From the NCBI GenBank assembly GCA_009786085.1, contig WQTW01000005.1:3783-36391 (forward strand): a stretch of 32,609 nt of DNA, given 5' to 3'. How positions within the stretch are numbered: position 1 is the first letter of the stretch; the number at the start of each line of letters is the position of its first letter. A model generated the notes under the pieces. The model had not been told where the DNA came from and searched no databases. It worked only from the letters and a program-made list of their open reading frames with translations. This DNA comes from Pseudomonadota bacterium (GTDB lineage Bacteria; Pseudomonadota; Gammaproteobacteria; Burkholderiales; Casimicrobiaceae). The position numbers were made by a program, and so were the translations under genes. This document shows, in pieces, positions 6,474-29,600 of the stretch.

Positions 6474-8033
6474 CTAAAAGTAGGCAATTTGGCCCGCGCT
6501 CCGTTTTTCTCCGCGCGACGAAAGGGAGTCCAGCAGCTTTTGGTGTATGCCGCCAAAACCGCCGTTGCTCATGATCAGGATGTGATCGCCCGTTCGCGCG
6601 TCGGCGGTGAGCGCGTCGAGCAGCGCCGGGAGCGCATCGAAGGTGCGCGCTTTTTTGCCCAGCGGCGCCAGCGCGGCGGCGGCGTCCCAGCCGAGGTTGG
6701 CGGCGTAGCAATAAACGGCGTCGGCGTCACGCAGGCTGTCGGGCAACGCTTCTTTCATGGCGCCGAGTTTCATCGTGTTCGAGCGCGGTTCGAGGACGGC
6801 AAGAATCCGGGCGTTGCCGAGTAACTTGCGCAAGGCATCCAGCGTGGCGGCGATCGCGGTCGGGTGGTGCGCGAAGTCGTCGTAAACCGTGACGCCGTGA
6901 ACCTGACCGCGCTTTTCCAGTCGCCGCGCAACGCCCGGGAAACGCGCCAGCGCGGCGAGCGCTTCGTCGATACCGACGCCGACATGGTGCGCGGCGGCGA
7001 TTGCGGCAAGCGCGTTCATCGCGTTCATCGTGCCGGGCTGCGGCAGCGACAGTGTTTTGTGTGTATTGTCGGGGGTGATGATCTGTGCCCCCTTTTCAAA
7101 GAGCCTGTCCCCGAAGTGATTTTGATCGGGGAGGGTGTCGGCGAAGCCGACGGGGGTTTGCTGTGGGAGAGGGGTAGAGAGAGAGGAGGGAAATGCTTCC
7201 CCTCTCCCGCTTTCCGCGGGAGAGGGGTCAGGGGAGAGGGTGACAAGCCGCCACTCCGGCGACGCCATCACTTCGCCGCGCCCGAAGTGTTCAACGCCGC
7301 TCCAGGCGCCGCGCGCCAGAACGCGCTGCAAGGCTTCACTGTCGGCGTTGACGATCAGTCGCCCGTTCGGCGGCACGGTGCGCACCAGATGGTGAAACTG
7401 CGTTTCGATGGCGGCAAGATCGGCGAAGATGTCGGCGTGGTCGAATTCGAGGTTGTTGAGAATCGCGGTGCGCGGTCGGTAGTGAACGAATTTCGAGCGC
7501 TTGTCGAAGAAGGCGGTGTCGTATTCGTCGGCCTCGATCACGAAGAACGGGCTGTCGGTCAAGCGCGCCGACACGTGAAATCCGGCGGGCACGCCGCCGA
7601 TCAGAAAGCCGGGGCGAAGACCGGCGCAGTCGAGAATCCAGGCCAGCATCGACGCGGTGGTGGTTTTGCCGTGCGTGCCGGCAACGGCAAGCACATGCCG
7701 CGCGCCCTGCGGCGTTGTCGTGCGCAGCACATGTTCGGCCAGCCATTGCGGGCCGGAGGTGTAGGGCAGGTTGCGTTCGAGGATCGCTTCGACGAGCGGA
7801 TTGCCGCGCGACAGCGCGTTGCCGATCACGAAAATGTCGGCGTCGCGGGCAACGGTGTCGAGTTGTTCGGCTTCATAACCGGACGTTAACGTGATGCCCA
7901 GCGCTTCTAGCTGCGTTGACATCGGCGGATAGGTTTGCGCATCGCAGCCGGTGACGCGGTGCCCCTGCTGCTGCGCCAGCGCCGCGATGCCGCCCATGAA
8001 TGTGCCGCAGATACCGAGGATGTGAAGGTGCAT
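6474..8033 (-). CDS. mpl: UDP-N-acetylmuramate:L-alanyl-gamma-D-glutamyl-meso-DAP ligase with internal repeat-derived insertion
   Basis: This cytosolic peptidoglycan-recycling ligase attaches the recovered tripeptide to UDP-MurNAc using ATP. The 519 residues show the Mur-ligase layout: MHLHILGICGTFMGG at the N-terminus, the P-loop GTHGKTTTAS near 119-128, EADEYDTAFF, NNLEFDHADIF, the C-terminal domain beginning near PGVARRLEKRG, and YDDFAHHPTA. The C-terminal IMSNGGFGGIHQKLLD is characteristic of Mpl rather than MurC. E. coli Mpl is about 457 residues. The excess is explained by residues about 265-320 (plus coordinates about 7076-7240), which are built from intergenic repeat modules and lie between the substrate domain and the conserved MNAMNALAAIAAA block. 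The last about 15 residues also resemble a repeat (see 6495-6515). The reading frame is intact, so the gene is probably functional. A TACAAT -10-like hexamer lies at 8055-8060 (minus). Confidence 0.93.
   Translation of the reverse strand: MHLHILGICGTFMGGIAALAQQQGHRVTGCDAQTYPPMSTQLEALGITLTSGYEAEQLDTVARDADIFVIGNALSRGNPLVEAILERNLPYTSGPQWLAEHVLRTTTPQGARHVLAVAGTHGKTTTASMLAWILDCAGLRPGFLIGGVPAGFHVSARLTDSPFFVIEADEYDTAFFDKRSKFVHYRPRTAILNNLEFDHADIFADLAAIETQFHHLVRTVPPNGRLIVNADSEALQRVLARGAWSGVEHFGRGEVMASPEWRLVTLSPDPSPAESGRGEAFPSSLSTPLPQQTPVGFADTLPDQNHFGDRLFEKGAQIITPDNTHKTLSLPQPGTMNAMNALAAIAAAHHVGVGIDEALAALARFPGVARRLEKRGQVHGVTVYDDFAHHPTAIAATLDALRKLLGNARILAVLEPRSNTMKLGAMKEALPDSLRDADAVYCYAANLGWDAAAALAPLGKKARTFDALPALLDALTADARTGDHILIMSNGGFGGIHQKLLDSLSSRGEKRSAGQIAYF
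7076..7240. repeat. Composite repeat insertion inside mpl
   Basis: On the plus strand this segment contains CCCCCTTTTCAAAGAG, then a small hairpin (CCCCGA...TCGGGG), then GGGTGTCGGCGAAGCCGACG and GGGGTTTG. Together these are the intergenic module CCCCCTTT/GTCGGC seen at about 15980-16020 and 30804-30852. The palindrome CCCTCTCCCGC...GCGGGAGAGGGG follows (about 7198-7226), with GGGGAGAGGG. It is read in-frame on the minus strand as about 55 residues rich in Pro, Ser and Gly, with no counterpart in normal Mpl. Confidence 0.85.
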
Positions 8034-15890: not shown

Positions 15891-16200
15891 TGCGGGATAA
15901 TTACGGGTTGCGAGAGCGAATTTCTATCTGTCGCGCTTGGACAAACCCCCGCTCGCCTTTGGCGGGCGCCCAGCAAACCCCCGTCGGCTCCGCCGACACC
16001 CCCTTTGAAAAGGGGGCTTGTCGTTTCTTCGTGGCTTCGCGTGAATATAAAAAGCCGTCATTGCGGTGAAATGTTTTTTCTGATCCCTGATCCCTGACCT
16101 CTGACTTCTGACATCTGACATCTGACTTCTGACATCTGACCCCTGACAACGACCGCCGCTTCTTTCTTTCTGCGCGCTCATCGCAGGAATGCGTCTATGA
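15891..16200. repeat. Intergenic repeat mosaic 6 (downstream of purU)
   Basis: I see no gene here. It contains two joined CCCCCGTCGGC/CCCCCTTTGAAAAGGGGG-type modules (15943-16018), then a GCGTGAATATAAAAAGCCG segment (about 16038-16056) also found at about 14617-14635. A reversed heptamer tract of about ten units (TCTGATC, CCTGACC and related; 16078-16147) follows. This is the second longest uninterrupted heptamer array in the window. Confidence 0.85.
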
Positions 16201-16263: not shown

Positions 16264-17457
16264 GTGCCCATCACTTTTCATTACACCCGTTGCCCGCAGT
16301 GCCACACGACGTTCCGCATCACGTCGCAGCAGTTGGCGCTGCGCGACGGGCGGGCGCGCTGTGGTCATTGCCGAACGGTGTTCAATGCGTTTGCGGCGCT
16401 GGTGGATTTCGCGGGGGAGCGCGTTCCCGGCCCCGGCATGGAGCCTGTGCAACGCGAAACGATGACGTTGCGCGATTCTGTTTCGTCGTCGGGAGACGAT
16501 TTCTCTGCGCCGCCCGCTCCCGAGGAAACGAAAGAAGAAAAACCGTCGCCGCCGCCGGTTTCTGAAGCGCCCGCTGACGCTCCGGCAAGCACGACCCCGC
16601 CCAGAAGGAAGGGCCCGCCCACCAAAGAGGAAATCGCGTTGGCGATCGCGGAAGCCGCCGGTGAAAAACCGCCAGATCCCACCAGCGCTCCGGCGAGCAC
16701 GACTCCACCCAGAAGGAAAGGCCCACCCACCAAAGAGGAGGTCGCGCTGGCGATCGCGGAAGCCGCCGGTGAAAAACCGCAAGGCCCTGCCAGCGCACCG
16801 GCAAGCACGACCCCGCCCAGAAGGAAAGGCCCACCCACCAAAGAGGAAATCGCGCTGGCGATCGCGGAAACGACGGAGGAACGACGGCAGCGCAATCTGC
16901 GCAAGGAAAAGCCGTCGCCGCTGACGCTGGTGCTCGACCCCGCCAAGAAGCCGACGATCTGGCAACGGCTGCATTTGCCGTTCTGGTGTCGCCCGCTGTT
17001 TTATCTGGTGTCGCTGCCGGTCTTGACCGCTTTGCTGGCCGCGCAAGCCGTCTTTTTTCTGCACGATGAGCTGGCCAGCGCGTATCCGAAGCTGACGCCG
17101 ACGATTGCGCTCGGCTGTCGCTGGCTCAACTGTGAAATCAAACCGTTGCAAAATCTCGATGCGCTGACGATCGAGGCGTCTGATTTGCAGTCCATCCCCA
17201 ACGATGCGCAACAGCTTCTGTTGACCATCACGCTGCGCAACCGCAGCAACAAGCCTGTCGCTTATCCGCGCTTGTCTCTCGAATTGAACGATGCGCAAGG
17301 CCGATTGCTGACGCGCCGTCTTTTCGCGCCGGAGGCGTATCTGGTTCGCGCTGCCGACATCGATGTCGGCGCACCCCCCGCCCGCGATCAGGTTCTGCGT
17401 TTGTTGTTGCGCTCCGAATTTCCCGCCACCGGCTACCGGTTGTCGCTGGTGTATTAG
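16264..17457 (+). CDS. MJ0042 zinc-ribbon, DUF3426 membrane protein with 36-residue tandem repeats
   Basis: The GTG start is chosen because the zinc ribbon begins immediately: MPITFHYTRCPQCHTTFRI, with C10, C13, C33 and C36 as metal ligands. The product is 397 residues. The order is: zinc ribbon (1-45); a long Pro/Glu/Lys-rich linker; three tandem copies of a 36-residue unit (TTPPRRKGPPTKEEIALAIA, then EAAGEKP and a short spacer; DNA period 108 bp from 16591); one membrane helix (PLFYLVSLPVLTALLAAQAV); and a periplasmic DUF3426 domain (LGCRWLNCEIKPLQNLDALT to the end). Such proteins are common in betaproteobacteria, often near prmA, which is absent here. The function is unknown. The repeat copies are nearly identical, so they arose recently. 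Confidence 0.86.
   Translation: MPITFHYTRCPQCHTTFRITSQQLALRDGRARCGHCRTVFNAFAALVDFAGERVPGPGMEPVQRETMTLRDSVSSSGDDFSAPPAPEETKEEKPSPPPVSEAPADAPASTTPPRRKGPPTKEEIALAIAEAAGEKPPDPTSAPASTTPPRRKGPPTKEEVALAIAEAAGEKPQGPASAPASTTPPRRKGPPTKEEIALAIAETTEERRQRNLRKEKPSPLTLVLDPAKKPTIWQRLHLPFWCRPLFYLVSLPVLTALLAAQAVFFLHDELASAYPKLTPTIALGCRWLNCEIKPLQNLDALTIEASDLQSIPNDAQQLLLTITLRNRSNKPVAYPRLSLELNDAQGRLLTRRLFAPEAYLVRAADIDVGAPPARDQVLRLLLRSEFPATGYRLSLVY
16591..16878 (+). repeat. 108-bp in-frame tandem repeat in the DUF3426 gene
   Basis: Copies begin at 16591, 16699 and 16807 with ACGACCCCGCCCAGAAGGAA or a close variant. The third is partial and diverges after ATCGCGGAA. The period is a multiple of three, so copy-number change only alters linker length between the zinc ribbon and the membrane helix. 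Confidence 0.92.
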
Positions 17458-22296: not shown

Positions 22297-22309
22297 AAGT
22301 GTTGGAAAG

Positions 22310-22325
22310 TGTTTCACGTGAAACA
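22310..22325. promoter_or_regulatory. parS: parS site 2
   Basis: This is a second perfect TGTTTCACGTGAAACA, 29 bp (about three helical turns) from the first. It ends 21 bp before the mnmG start codon, so ParB bound here would sit in the mnmG leader. Confidence 0.96.
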
Positions 22326-22346
22326 GTATTCATCGTTGAGTGGAAA

Positions 22347-24488
22347 ATGAAGTATCCCGAACGTTTTGAAGTGATTGTTGTGGGTGGCGGACATGCGGGC
22401 ACGGAAGCGGCGCTGGCAGCGGCGCGTATGGGCGCAAAAACGCTTTTATTGACACACAATCTCGAAACGCTGGGACAAATGTCGTGCAATCCGTCGATTG
22501 GCGGGATCGGTAAAGGGCATCTGGTCAAGGAAGTCGATGCGCTCGATGGCGCGATGGCCCTGGTGACGGACGAGGCGGGAATCCAGTTTCGGCTGTTGAA
22601 TGCCAGCAAAGGCCCGGCGGTAAGAGCAACGCGGGCGCAAATGGATCGTGTTCTGTACCGCAACGCTATACGGAAAAAGCTGGAGAATCAACCGAATCTG
22701 CGGCTGTTCGCGCAGGCGGTGGATGATCTAGTCGTTGAAAACGGTGAGGTTCGCGGCGTCGTGACGCAAGTGGGGGTCGTTTTCGAGGCAGACACGGTGG
22801 TGCTGACAACCGGCACTTTCCTCGCCGGGTTGGCGCACGTCGGCCTTTCGCATTATGAAGCGGGCAGGGCAGGGGATCCCGCCGCCAAACCGTTGGCCGA
22901 AAGGTTGCGGGAACTGGAATTGCCGGTCGGACGGCTCAAAACCGGAACGCCGCCTCGGCTTGACGCCAGAACCATTGATTTTTCAATCCTTCAGGAACAA
23001 CCAGGCGACACGCCGACGCCGGTTTTCTCATTTCTCGGCAATCCGGCGATGCACCCGCCGCAACTTCCGTGCTGGATCACCTACACCAACGCCAACACTC
23101 ACGAAATCATCCGCGGCGGGCTGGATCGCTCGCCGCTTTATTCGGGCGTGATCACCAGTACCGGGCCGCGTTACTGCCCGTCGATCGAGGATAAGGTCGT
23201 TCGCTTTTCGCAGCGCGAAGCGCACCAGATTTTTCTGGAGCCGGAAGGGTTGCACACCCACGAAATCTATCCGAACGGGATTTCCACCTCGCTGCCTTTC
23301 GATGTCCAGTGGGCGCTGGTGCGCTCGATCAAAGGTTGCGAACGGGCGCACATCCTTCGTCCGGGTTATGCGATCGAATACGATTACGTCGATCCGCGGG
23401 CGCTGAAGAAAACCCTGGAACTCAAAGCGTTGCCGGGGCTTTTCCTGGCCGGCCAGATCAACGGGACGACCGGCTACGAAGAAGCGGCGGCGCTCGGTCT
23501 GCTGGCGGGGATCAACGCCGCCCGTAAAGTGCGCGGCAAAGACGGCTGGTGTCCGTCGCGCGATGAAGGCTACCTGGGCGTGATGGTGGATGACCTGATT
23601 ACCCGTGGCGTCACCGAGCCGTACCGGATGTTTACCTCGCGCGCCGAATACCGACTGCAACTGCGCGAGGACAACGCCGATATGCGGCTGACGGAGCAGG
23701 GGCGGAAACTCGGCGTTGTCGGTGACGCGCGCTGGACAGCGTTTTCCCGCAAGCGCGATGCGGTGGCGGCGGAGCTCGAACGGCTCAAATCGACCTGGGT
23801 CAACCCCAAGACCGTTGCCAGGATCGAGACGGAGAACCTCTTTGGACAAGCGTTGGAAAGAGAGTATGTGCTTGCTGACCTGTTACGGCGCCCGGGCATC
23901 ACCCATGCGGCGCTGATGTCCTGGTTTGATCGTCTTACCCTCTCCTGCGGGAGAGAGCGTTCCGACAAACCCCCGTCCGTCTCCGACGGACACCCCCTTT
24001 CAAAAGGGGGCGGGGCGGAAGAGCGCGACGGTAGAAGCCCTTCCCTTCAAGGAGAGGGTTGGGGTGAGGAAGGGGTTTCAGCTTACTCCCCTCTCTCTCA
24101 CGGGGAGAGGGGAGCAACAAACAATAGCACGCTCGTTCCCGCCGACGTTGCCGAACAAGTCGAAATCAGCCTCAAATACGAGGGCTACATCGTGCGGCAG
24201 CAGGAAGAAATCCGCCGCGCCAAAGCGCAGGAAGACGCGCGCCTTCCCGCCGATCTGGATTACCGCGACGTGCGCGGGCTGTCGAGCGAGGTCTGCCAGA
24301 AACTCAACGCCCACAAACCGGAAACCGTCGGCCAGGCATCGCGGATTTCCGGCGTCACGCCGGCGGCCATTTCGTTGTTGCTGGTGCATCTGAAGCGGTT
24401 GCGGGGTCAGGGATCAGAGGTCAGGAGTCAGGGATCAGAGGTCAGGAGTCAGGGATCAGAGGTCAGGAATCAGGATTCAGAAAGTTAA
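22347..24488 (+). CDS. mnmG: tRNA uridine-5-carboxymethylaminomethyl modification enzyme MnmG, with internal insertion and repeat-coded tail
   Basis: With MnmE this FAD enzyme installs the cmnm5 group on U34 of tRNAs. The start at 22347 gives [20 protein letters not shown], the family N-terminus; longer frames would translate through parS. The 713 residues exceed the usual about 630. Landmarks are GGGHAG near 13-18, [77 protein letters not shown] and [12 protein letters not shown] through [19 protein letters not shown]. Two additions stand out: residues about 531-592, made of intergenic repeat modules, and residues about 686-713, encoded by heptamer repeats. Removing both restores the normal length. 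MnmE is not in the window. The gene order mnmG-...-rsmG-parA-parB is the common one, apart from the accessory genes inserted after mnmG. Confidence 0.95.
23936..24120. repeat. Composite repeat insertion inside mnmG
   Basis: The modules are CCCTCTCCTGCGGGAGAGAG (about 23938-23957), then ACAAACCCCCGTCCGTC/GACGGACACCCCC/TTTCAAAAGGGGG (about 23964-24010), then CCCTTCCCTTCAAGGAGAGG (about 24039-24058) with GGGTGAGG, then CTCCCCTCTCTCTCACGGGG with AGAGGGGAG (about 24086-24115). It is read in-frame as about 62 residues rich in Ser, Gly and Glu. It sits between the conserved LLRRPGI block and the VAEQVEI block, a linker in MnmG proteins. Confidence 0.88.
24403..24482 (+). repeat. TCAGRRR heptamer array encoding the mnmG C-terminus
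   Basis: About eleven 7-bp units (TCAGGGA, TCAGAGG, TCAGGAG in rotation, then TCAGGAA and TCAGGAT). Three units make 21 bp, so the protein shows a 7-residue period, GSEVRSQ repeated. The array ends just before the TAA stop at 24486. The same heptamers occur in at least eight non-coding places in the window. Confidence 0.93.
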
Positions 24489-24521
24489 CCGCAAAGAACG
24501 CAGAGAACACAAAAAAACATC

Positions 24522-28264: not shown

Positions 28265-29125
28265 ATGATACGACCCAAAGGACTAGGCCGCGGCCTCGAT
28301 TCGCTGATCCCGTCGGGGGACGAAGCGGAAAACATCGCCGTGTCGGAATTGCAAACCGTGGCGATCACGCGATTGCAGCCGGGCAAATACCAGCCGCGCA
28401 CGCGGATGGACGAAGCGTCACTCAATGAACTGGCCGAGTCCATTCGAGAACAGGGATTGGTACAACCGATTCTGGTGCGCGCCGTTGGTGAAAACCGCAG
28501 TGACAGCCGCTATGAAATCATTGCCGGCGAGCGGCGTTGGCGCGCTGCGCAACGCGCCGGATTGAAAGAAGTGCCCGTGCTGGTCAAAACCATTCCCGAC
28601 CAGACCGCGCTGGCCTGGGCGCTGATCGAAAACATCCAACGCGAAAACCTGAACCCGCTCGAGGAAGCGCAGGGCTTGCAACGCCTGATCGGTGAATTTT
28701 CGTTGACCCACGAAGATGCCGCCAAAGCCGTTGGCCGTTCGCGTAGCGCCGTGACCAACCTGCTGCGATTGTTGCAACTGTCGGAGCCGGTGCAAACGCA
28801 TTTGAACAACGGTACGTTGGAGATGGGACATGCGCGGGCGTTGCTGGCGCTGCCGAATGGGCAACAAGCCCTCGCGGCGTCGCGCATCGCCGAAAAAGGA
28901 ATGAGCGTGCGTGAGGCCGAGCGCCTGGTGCACACGATGCAGCATCCGCCGGTTAAGAAAAAAACCGTGACGCACGACGCCGACCTCGCGCGGCTCGAAA
29001 CCGAATTGTCGGAACACCTCGGCGCCAACGTGCGCATCGAATGCGGCAAAAAAGGCACGGGCAAACTGATCATCCATTACACCAACCTCGATACACTGGA
29101 CGGGATACTGGAAAAATTGCGGTGA
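28265..29125 (+). CDS. parB: Chromosome partitioning protein ParB (Spo0J)
   Basis: This CTP-dependent clamp loads at parS and spreads on DNA. The product is 286 residues. The N-terminal ParA-interacting stretch (RPKGLGRGLDSLIP) is followed by the CTPase/ParB-N domain with the GERRWRAA box near 88-95 and ENIQRENLNPLEEAQG. The helix-turn-helix LTHEDAAKAVGRSRSAVTNL comes next, and the C-terminal dimerisation domain ends LDGILEKLR. Two perfect parS sites lie about 6 kb upstream beside mnmG. It starts directly after the parA stop. A repeat mosaic follows, where an atp operon is often found in other proteobacteria. Confidence 0.97.
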   Translation: MIRPKGLGRGLDSLIPSGDEAENIAVSELQTVAITRLQPGKYQPRTRMDEASLNELAESIREQGLVQPILVRAVGENRSDSRYEIIAGERRWRAAQRAGLKEVPVLVKTIPDQTALAWALIENIQRENLNPLEEAQGLQRLIGEFSLTHEDAAKAVGRSRSAVTNLLRLLQLSEPVQTHLNNGTLEMGHARALLALPNGQQALAASRIAEKGMSVREAERLVHTMQHPPVKKKTVTHDADLARLETELSEHLGANVRIECGKKGTGKLIIHYTNLDTLDGILEKLR

Positions 29126-29600
29126 GCAGGGGGCAGGGGTCAGATATCAGAGGTCAGATATCAGAGGTCAGGGATCAGGGATCAGAAAAACCATTTCACC
29201 GCAAAGAACGCAAAGAAAAGCATGGCGCGCAGGTGGCGTCATTGCGAGCGAAGCGAAGCAATCCAGAAAAGTTTTCTCACGCGAAGCCGCGAAGGAACGA
29301 ATCTCCCCTCTCCCCTTGCGGGAGAGGGGTCGGGGGAGAGGGGTAAAAGCAAGCGTAGCCAACAGGGAATCAAAAACACGATTAACCGCAAAGAAAGCAA
29401 AGAATAATTCGCACGCGAAGGCGCAAAGACGCATTTCTGATACATGACCGCTGATTCCTGACAACCCCATCCCCACCCCAACCCTCCCCTTGAAGGGGAG
29501 GGGGCGTCGTTCCTTCGCGCCTTCGCGTGAGATGATGCTTTTCTGATACCTGACATCTGACATCTGACTTCTGCCCCCTGATTGACACCCCGCCATCACA
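29126..29600. repeat. Intergenic repeat mosaic 8 (downstream of parB)
   Basis: I see no gene here. Modules are: TCAGRRR/TCAGATA heptamers (about 29139-29187); ACCGCAAAGAACGCAAAG (29197-29214); GTCATTGCGAGCGAAGCG...CAATCCAG (29237-29265); TCACGCGAAGCCGCGAAGG (29277-29295); CTCCCCTCTCCCC/GGGAGAGGGGTCGGGGGAG (about 29302-29340); TTAACCGCAAAGAAAGCAAA (29382-29401); CGCACGCGAAGGCGCAAAG (about 29411-29429); reversed heptamers (about 29440-29463); CCCCAACCCTCCCC with TTGAAGGGGAGGG (about 29475-29502); TTCCTTCGCGCCTTCGCGTG (about 29510-29529); and reversed heptamers (29544-29586). Confidence 0.85.

Follow-up and report, generated by a model that had tools for sequence, protein, structure and literature searches.

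The window, a stretch of 32,609 nucleotides, corresponds to positions 3783-36391 of contig C5 of the source genome (G000), a small betaproteobacterial genome of 2.25 Mb in 178 contigs, whose closest named record is JAITMH010000047.1 ('Burkholderiales bacterium Pcu381_bin7'). The mpl gene, located on the minus strand (positions 6474-8033), encodes a UDP-N-acetylmuramate:L-alanyl-gamma-D-glutamyl-meso-diaminopimelate ligase of 519 aa, an enzyme of cell-wall recycling, that matches TIGR01081 with 633 bits, above the cut-off. This match is broken into two stretches around residue 254, and the sequence LVTLSPDPSPAESGRGEAFPSSLSTPLPQQTPVGFADTLPDQNHFGDRLFEKGAQ separates the conserved parts of the protein. 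Comparison with nine congeners delimited a complete in-frame insert (7083-7244, minus strand) that takes the place of a linker only a few residues long in a beta-hairpin loop. The fixed flanks enclose 75 residues, compared with 26 in the empty loop of sister genome G010, and the net gain of 49 aa is close to the about 55 residues originally estimated.

The insert exhibits a composite structure. Its BJ element (76 nt; 7087-7162, minus strand) consists of module B (AAACCCCCGTCGGCTTCGCCGACACCC..CTTTGAAAAGGGGGC) with module J nested inside, and is identical at 76 of 76 nucleotides to L118:16958-17033, a copy with discrete ends that is apparently intergenic and lies on contig C2; partial copies are found at L150, L143 and L128. 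The core of module J (GATCAAAATCACTTCGGGG; 7109-7127, minus strand) has 27 genome matches with up to three mismatches, and the reversed control gave 0. The A-long element (62 nt; 7179-7240, minus strand) is 93.5% identical to L153:3435-3496, with further copies at L122:6910-6971 (92%) and L149 (90%). It bears the A palindrome, CCCCTCTCCCGC ggaaa GCGGGAGAGGGG (7199-7227), whose 12-bp stem yields a fold of -16.1 kcal/mol (z = -6.8). Between the two elements, a second A module persists as a remnant (CCCCTCTCCCACAG; 7163-7178, minus strand), as comparison with the insert in L128 revealed; it remains intact in the copy within rsmB. When the insert DNA was compared with 815 kb of G000 (36% of the genome, sampled in stretches, as were 800 kb of G007), 46 matching pieces were recovered, whereas a control stretch of mpl of the same length matched only itself. 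These results confirm that the Mpl insert is dispersed repeat DNA, far beyond chance, and that the in-frame composite insertion proposed in the initial annotation is real. One might instead invoke a loop that is inherently variable in Mpl and biased in composition, unconnected with the repeats, as loop length does vary among Mpl proteins (57 residues between the matched parts in 3hn7); however, the full identity with intergenic DNA refutes this explanation for G000, and other genes read the same DNA in different frames, which leaves it scarcely credible.

Both main families are abundant. The A palindrome (CTCTCCCGCNNGCGGGAGAGG) has 195 genome copies and none in the reversed control, and about 200 module B-type hairpins (203 matches) were detected, with folding z values of about -3.2 for B and BJ. 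A and B are thus dispersed, hairpin-capable repeats of the RPE-like kind. No 14-mer of the shuffled sequence reached the copy number of the modules, and module DNA accounts for about 6% of sampled G000 versus 1.3% in G007. Module J is nested in B at five places and elsewhere in A, within the A loop. A plasmid search for the modules returned just one 48-nt piece, in Cupriavidus, and a literature search with the A sequence gave chance matches only. Among the commonest repeats of the genome are also 7-nt minisatellites of the TCAGAGG / TCAGGGA type, which form mostly intergenic arrays in the window (24387-24504, 29113-29202 and 16064-16160); additionally, a 108-nt repeat occurs three times in tandem inside a long ORF (16578-16901).

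The comparison set comprised the source genome and ten sister genomes of the same genus, g1, in which ten Mpl orthologues were read between fixed flanks of the EWRL and LSLP type. This comparison of Mpl length and DNA among sister species, proposed in the initial annotation, found empty, single-palindrome and composite loops. The loop lacks any module in G010, G006, G002, G004, G009 and G008, contains exactly one A palindrome in G007, and carries composites that all differ in G000, G005 (74 residues) and G003 (112 residues). In the composites of G005 and G003, J occupies the same site as in G000 in the opposite orientation. The mpl reading frame is intact in every sister species, whether the loop is filled or empty. 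A tree of the Mpl flanks groups the four carriers (G000, G003, G005 and G007) together as a single clade (support 80/97); the simplest history is therefore a founding insertion, with later accretion in each lineage separately. The load of A palindromes follows the same pattern, with 195 copies in G000, 10-68 across G001-G003, G005-G007 and G010 (32-195 in the Mpl-insert carriers), and 0-2 in G004, G008 and G009, whose Mpl loop is empty; G006 and G010 possess 35-40 copies and yet have an empty loop. No target-site duplication or element ends were discernible when empty and filled Mpl sites were compared, the ends being impossible to fix because the old linker was replaced. The Mpl of G005 (L004) also contains about 11 extra residues, NINEHTNKHVS, in its C-terminal domain that do not belong to the known modules.

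The expectation that the inserted peptide would be missing from Mpl of genomes lacking the repeats withstood a check of 36 Mpl proteins. The sole outside case was a Sideroxydans Mpl (L042:4650-4760; Sideroxydans sp. DAIDAG010000017.1), in which a short palindrome of comparable type (STPSPSGGGLGWGNG) sits in frame a few residues ahead of that loop and is apparently an independent insertion.

The dN/dS ratio of the Mpl flanks, calculated among carriers and against the non-carrier G010, was 0.04-0.20; therefore, Mpl is under purifying selection and still used. An AlphaFold model based on 36 sequences (mean pLDDT 86) displayed a normal Mur-ligase fold with core values above 90; the nearest solved structures are 3hn7 and 3eag, the model being closest to 3hn7. 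Confidence drops below pLDDT 50 at residues 270-311, which lie in the turn linking strands 260-264 and 316-319 and are remote from the P-loop GTHGKTT (residues 119-125). According to this model, the insert is a disordered surface loop in a beta-hairpin that leaves the core intact. The intact frames together with the dN/dS values suggest that it is translated and present in the mature protein, in which case GEAFPSSLSTPLPQQTPVGFADTLPDQNHFGDR would be an example of a predicted tryptic peptide spanning it.

Mpl is not the only enzyme affected. In-frame module inserts were identified in 13 genes in the 815 kb of G000: mpl, mnmG, recG (two sites), gpmI, a U32 peptidase (about 130 aa), rlmD, rsmB, gcvT, tsaD, tsaB, rlmJ, tsaE and a GalE-like epimerase. 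This count is based on comparison with G007 and on Pfam domain breaks, excludes N-terminal read-through and omits unproven rlpA-like, Mu-transposase and Mu-portal cases. Candidate blocks in dnaK and lolA were rejected, because they belong to DNA ahead of the gene start that is read through from upstream. Modules seemingly disrupt few genes, and at least the ABC-F case is an upstream extension. In 260 compared genes, G000 had 56 segments of 8 aa or more that G007 lacks, of which 12 were module DNA (one of them in a low-complexity protein), versus 1 of 50 in the reverse direction. The mnmG gene (22299-24488, plus strand; TIGR00136, 872 bits) carries modules B, A2 and A (23946-24119, plus strand), and families A and B are indeed common to its insert and that of mpl, as initially proposed; the insert is present in G000 and G007 and absent from the more distant species G002, G001, G004, G008 and G009. 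The rsmB insert repeats the A-long / A / BJ order of mpl in the same frame. In-frame insertions of these modules therefore occur in several unrelated conserved genes and are absent from orthologues.

RNA-modification genes are strikingly frequent among the inserts. All three of the t6A tRNA-modification genes seen carry one, namely tsaB (L153:4071-5024, minus strand), tsaD (L152:13345-14490, plus strand) and tsaE (L129:3281-4171, minus strand), in addition to mnmG, rlmD, rsmB and rlmJ. In recG (L132:13800-14190), the two module inserts flank part of the helicase domain, and the assembly contains one N there.

An assembly or binning artefact, with repeats misjoined within mpl, could be suspected from the fragmentation of the assembly, from the general tendency of repeats to break assemblies and from that N in recG. 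Nevertheless, the separate assemblies of G003, G005 and G007 are filled at the same loop and in frame, and the frame is kept in all 13 genes; an artefact, already disfavoured, is thus very improbable.

We next consider how the modules are read. The initial annotation placed them opposite to the gene, which is wrong with respect to the coding strand: module B runs in the sense direction (AAACCCCCG...) in both mpl and mnmG, and it looks reversed in mpl because that gene lies on the minus strand. The proposed difference in frame holds for module B between mpl (phase 2) and mnmG (phase 0), but the rsmB cassette shares the frame of mpl. Three reading phases are used for A and three for B, and six of nine module B hairpins are in one phase. 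Similarly, the suggestion that the modules are free of stop codons applies to the inserted families, whose consensus sequences are open in six of six frames (A) and five of six (B); it fails for family F, with stops in three of six, and for the pool as a whole, as module runs taken together are not stop-poor (2.64 versus about 2.3 stops per 100 codons in first-order Markov shuffles). Family F occurs in 112 of 326 blocks and yet is absent from the 13 in-gene inserts, which fits a survival filter, although this absence is partly built into the open-frame search.

Orientation is also biased. The C-rich strand is usually the sense strand of in-gene inserts, and A-tail and B copies in verified in-gene inserts are 16 sense to 2 antisense, in contrast to 12 sense and 28 antisense (28 of 40) between unidirectional genes in the G000 sample (L113-L158 plus the window); the difference is significant by copies (Fisher 4e-5) and by genes (9e-4). 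Pure neutrality does not predict this bias unless a filter acts, and peptide chemistry or a G-rich, Shine-Dalgarno-like mRNA are candidate causes of the reversal. The orientation bias and preferred frames yield hydrophilic peptides rich in Pro, Ser and Gly, and all four carriers retain something in the Mpl loop, as might be expected if the peptide had acquired a role, such as that of a linker for regulation or interaction, and been kept by positive selection. However, insert length and order differ in every species, the inserts affect 13 unrelated enzymes, the Mpl insert is predicted to be disordered, and such biases can arise from the purging of stops, hydrophobic peptides or Shine-Dalgarno-like sense strands. 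We therefore consider positive selection for the peptide improbable; most likely it is functionless and tolerated.

Altogether, the Mpl segment is very probably a composite of small, hairpin-forming, non-autonomous repeats of the REP/MITE-like kind that multiplied as DNA and came to lie in a surface loop able to tolerate them. The intergenic twin, the empty sister sites, the three frames and the 13 unrelated genes strongly support the original view in so far as dispersal of repeat DNA, rather than shared protein ancestry, accounts for the likeness of the inserts. We propose that the ancestor shared by the four carrier species probably already carried one A palindrome in this loop, and that later modules (the A remnant and B with its nested J) would have been added at the same spot lineage by lineage, as the elements apparently insert into or recombine with each other. 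Because Mpl stays under purifying selection, only states that keep the frame, lack stops and lie in a disordered loop would survive.

The elements may be mobilised in trans by a candidate HUH (Y1) transposase, such as the RAYT or an IS200 TnpA of the genome. G000 contains IS200-type Y1 transposases and one RAYT-like gene. This RAYT-like Y1 transposase ORF (L157:8945-9262 on contig C80; open frame of 203 aa) has GTAG-tagged repeats, CGTAGCCCGGATAAGCGAAGCGCCATCCGGGAA (CGTAGCCCGGATAAGCG...), in inverted orientation on either side, the typical arrangement of a REPtron. Neither A nor B lies next to it, the flanking repeats being GTAG REPs, and no transposase is linked to A or B because both lack the GTAG tag.

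The composites could instead have grown by replication errors (template switching, hairpin-primed slippage or gene conversion between dispersed palindromes), making a transposase unnecessary. This proposal, to which we assign a considerable though less than even chance, contests the mobilisation step alone, not the repeat-DNA origin of the insert. It agrees with the nesting of modules in palindromes, with the inverted J of G005 and G003, and with the lack of a transposase tied to A and B and of a visible target duplication; template switching between palindromes is a serious alternative for the nesting step. Conversely, an exact 76-nt BJ copy with discrete ends on another contig demands copying over distance, and gene conversion requires pre-existing homology at the site. 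Returning to mobile, non-autonomous repeats, we tentatively suggest, with the balance tipped slightly against it, that the palindromic cassettes of this genus insert preferentially into one another, hairpin into hairpin, so that an in-gene copy acts as a seed for in-frame accretion under an orientation and frame filter. If true, essential enzymes would, inside a single genus, gain new disordered segments 20-130 residues long.

In-frame protein-coding palindromes are a known but rare phenomenon (Rickettsia, Wolbachia and scattered REPs), whose origin and fate are usually hard to see. Here, empty, single-module and multi-module states of one loop are found in sister species, and the same cassettes recur in a dozen other housekeeping genes; landing, nesting, frame filter and tolerance can therefore be ordered and tested, and the genus provides a natural set of loops in well-studied enzymes where insertions are tolerated. 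In the papers searched, no earlier report described these repeat families or their nesting, nor the graded sister series or the orientation reversal.

The closest precedents are intragenic GTAG/CGTC REPs and the palindromic elements of Rickettsia. Intragenic GTAG/CGTC REPs have been described in Opitutus, Thauera, Xanthomonas and Thioalkalivibrio, where repair and RNA-modification genes are hit, palindrome clusters encode 43-82 aa (in Thauera and in R. conorii), and two Xanthomonas species have different REPs at nearly the same position in recB (PMC3733652). Our inserts likewise place palindromes within coding regions, including repair and RNA-modification genes, but A, B and J copies have no GTAG tag, and the RAYT gene, which in RAYT systems lies between copies of the same repeat, is not flanked by A or B. 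CGTC REPs have a CGTC (or TGTC/CCTC) tag, an 8-9 bp stem and a 4-5 nt loop, unlike A, whose stem spans 12 bp and which lacks the CGTC tag. G000 does harbour GTAG repeats (family I) as well as CGTC-like ones (family D), neither of which contributes to the Mpl insert. Some MITEs, such as Correia/NEMIS, ERIC and RU, are also read through in frame, with stop-free copies in genes and stop-rich ones between them (PMC2229807), a distribution shared by our modules, although no terminal inverted repeats with TA target duplication could be made out here. Rickettsia palindromic elements (RPEs) and Wolbachia palindromic repeats are dispersed, probably neutral hairpin repeats that interrupt many conserved genes in frame and are missing from the orthologues in related species (PMC2229807, PMC3733652). 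RPEs are 105-146 bp long, with long (12-bp) terminal inverted repeats, and belong to AT-rich alphaproteobacteria (PMC2229807). The modules reported here do not fit this description, being G+C-rich units of 29-76 nt, stacked and nested in a betaproteobacterium, but they resemble RPEs in forming hairpins, in being dispersed and in lying in frame in conserved genes.
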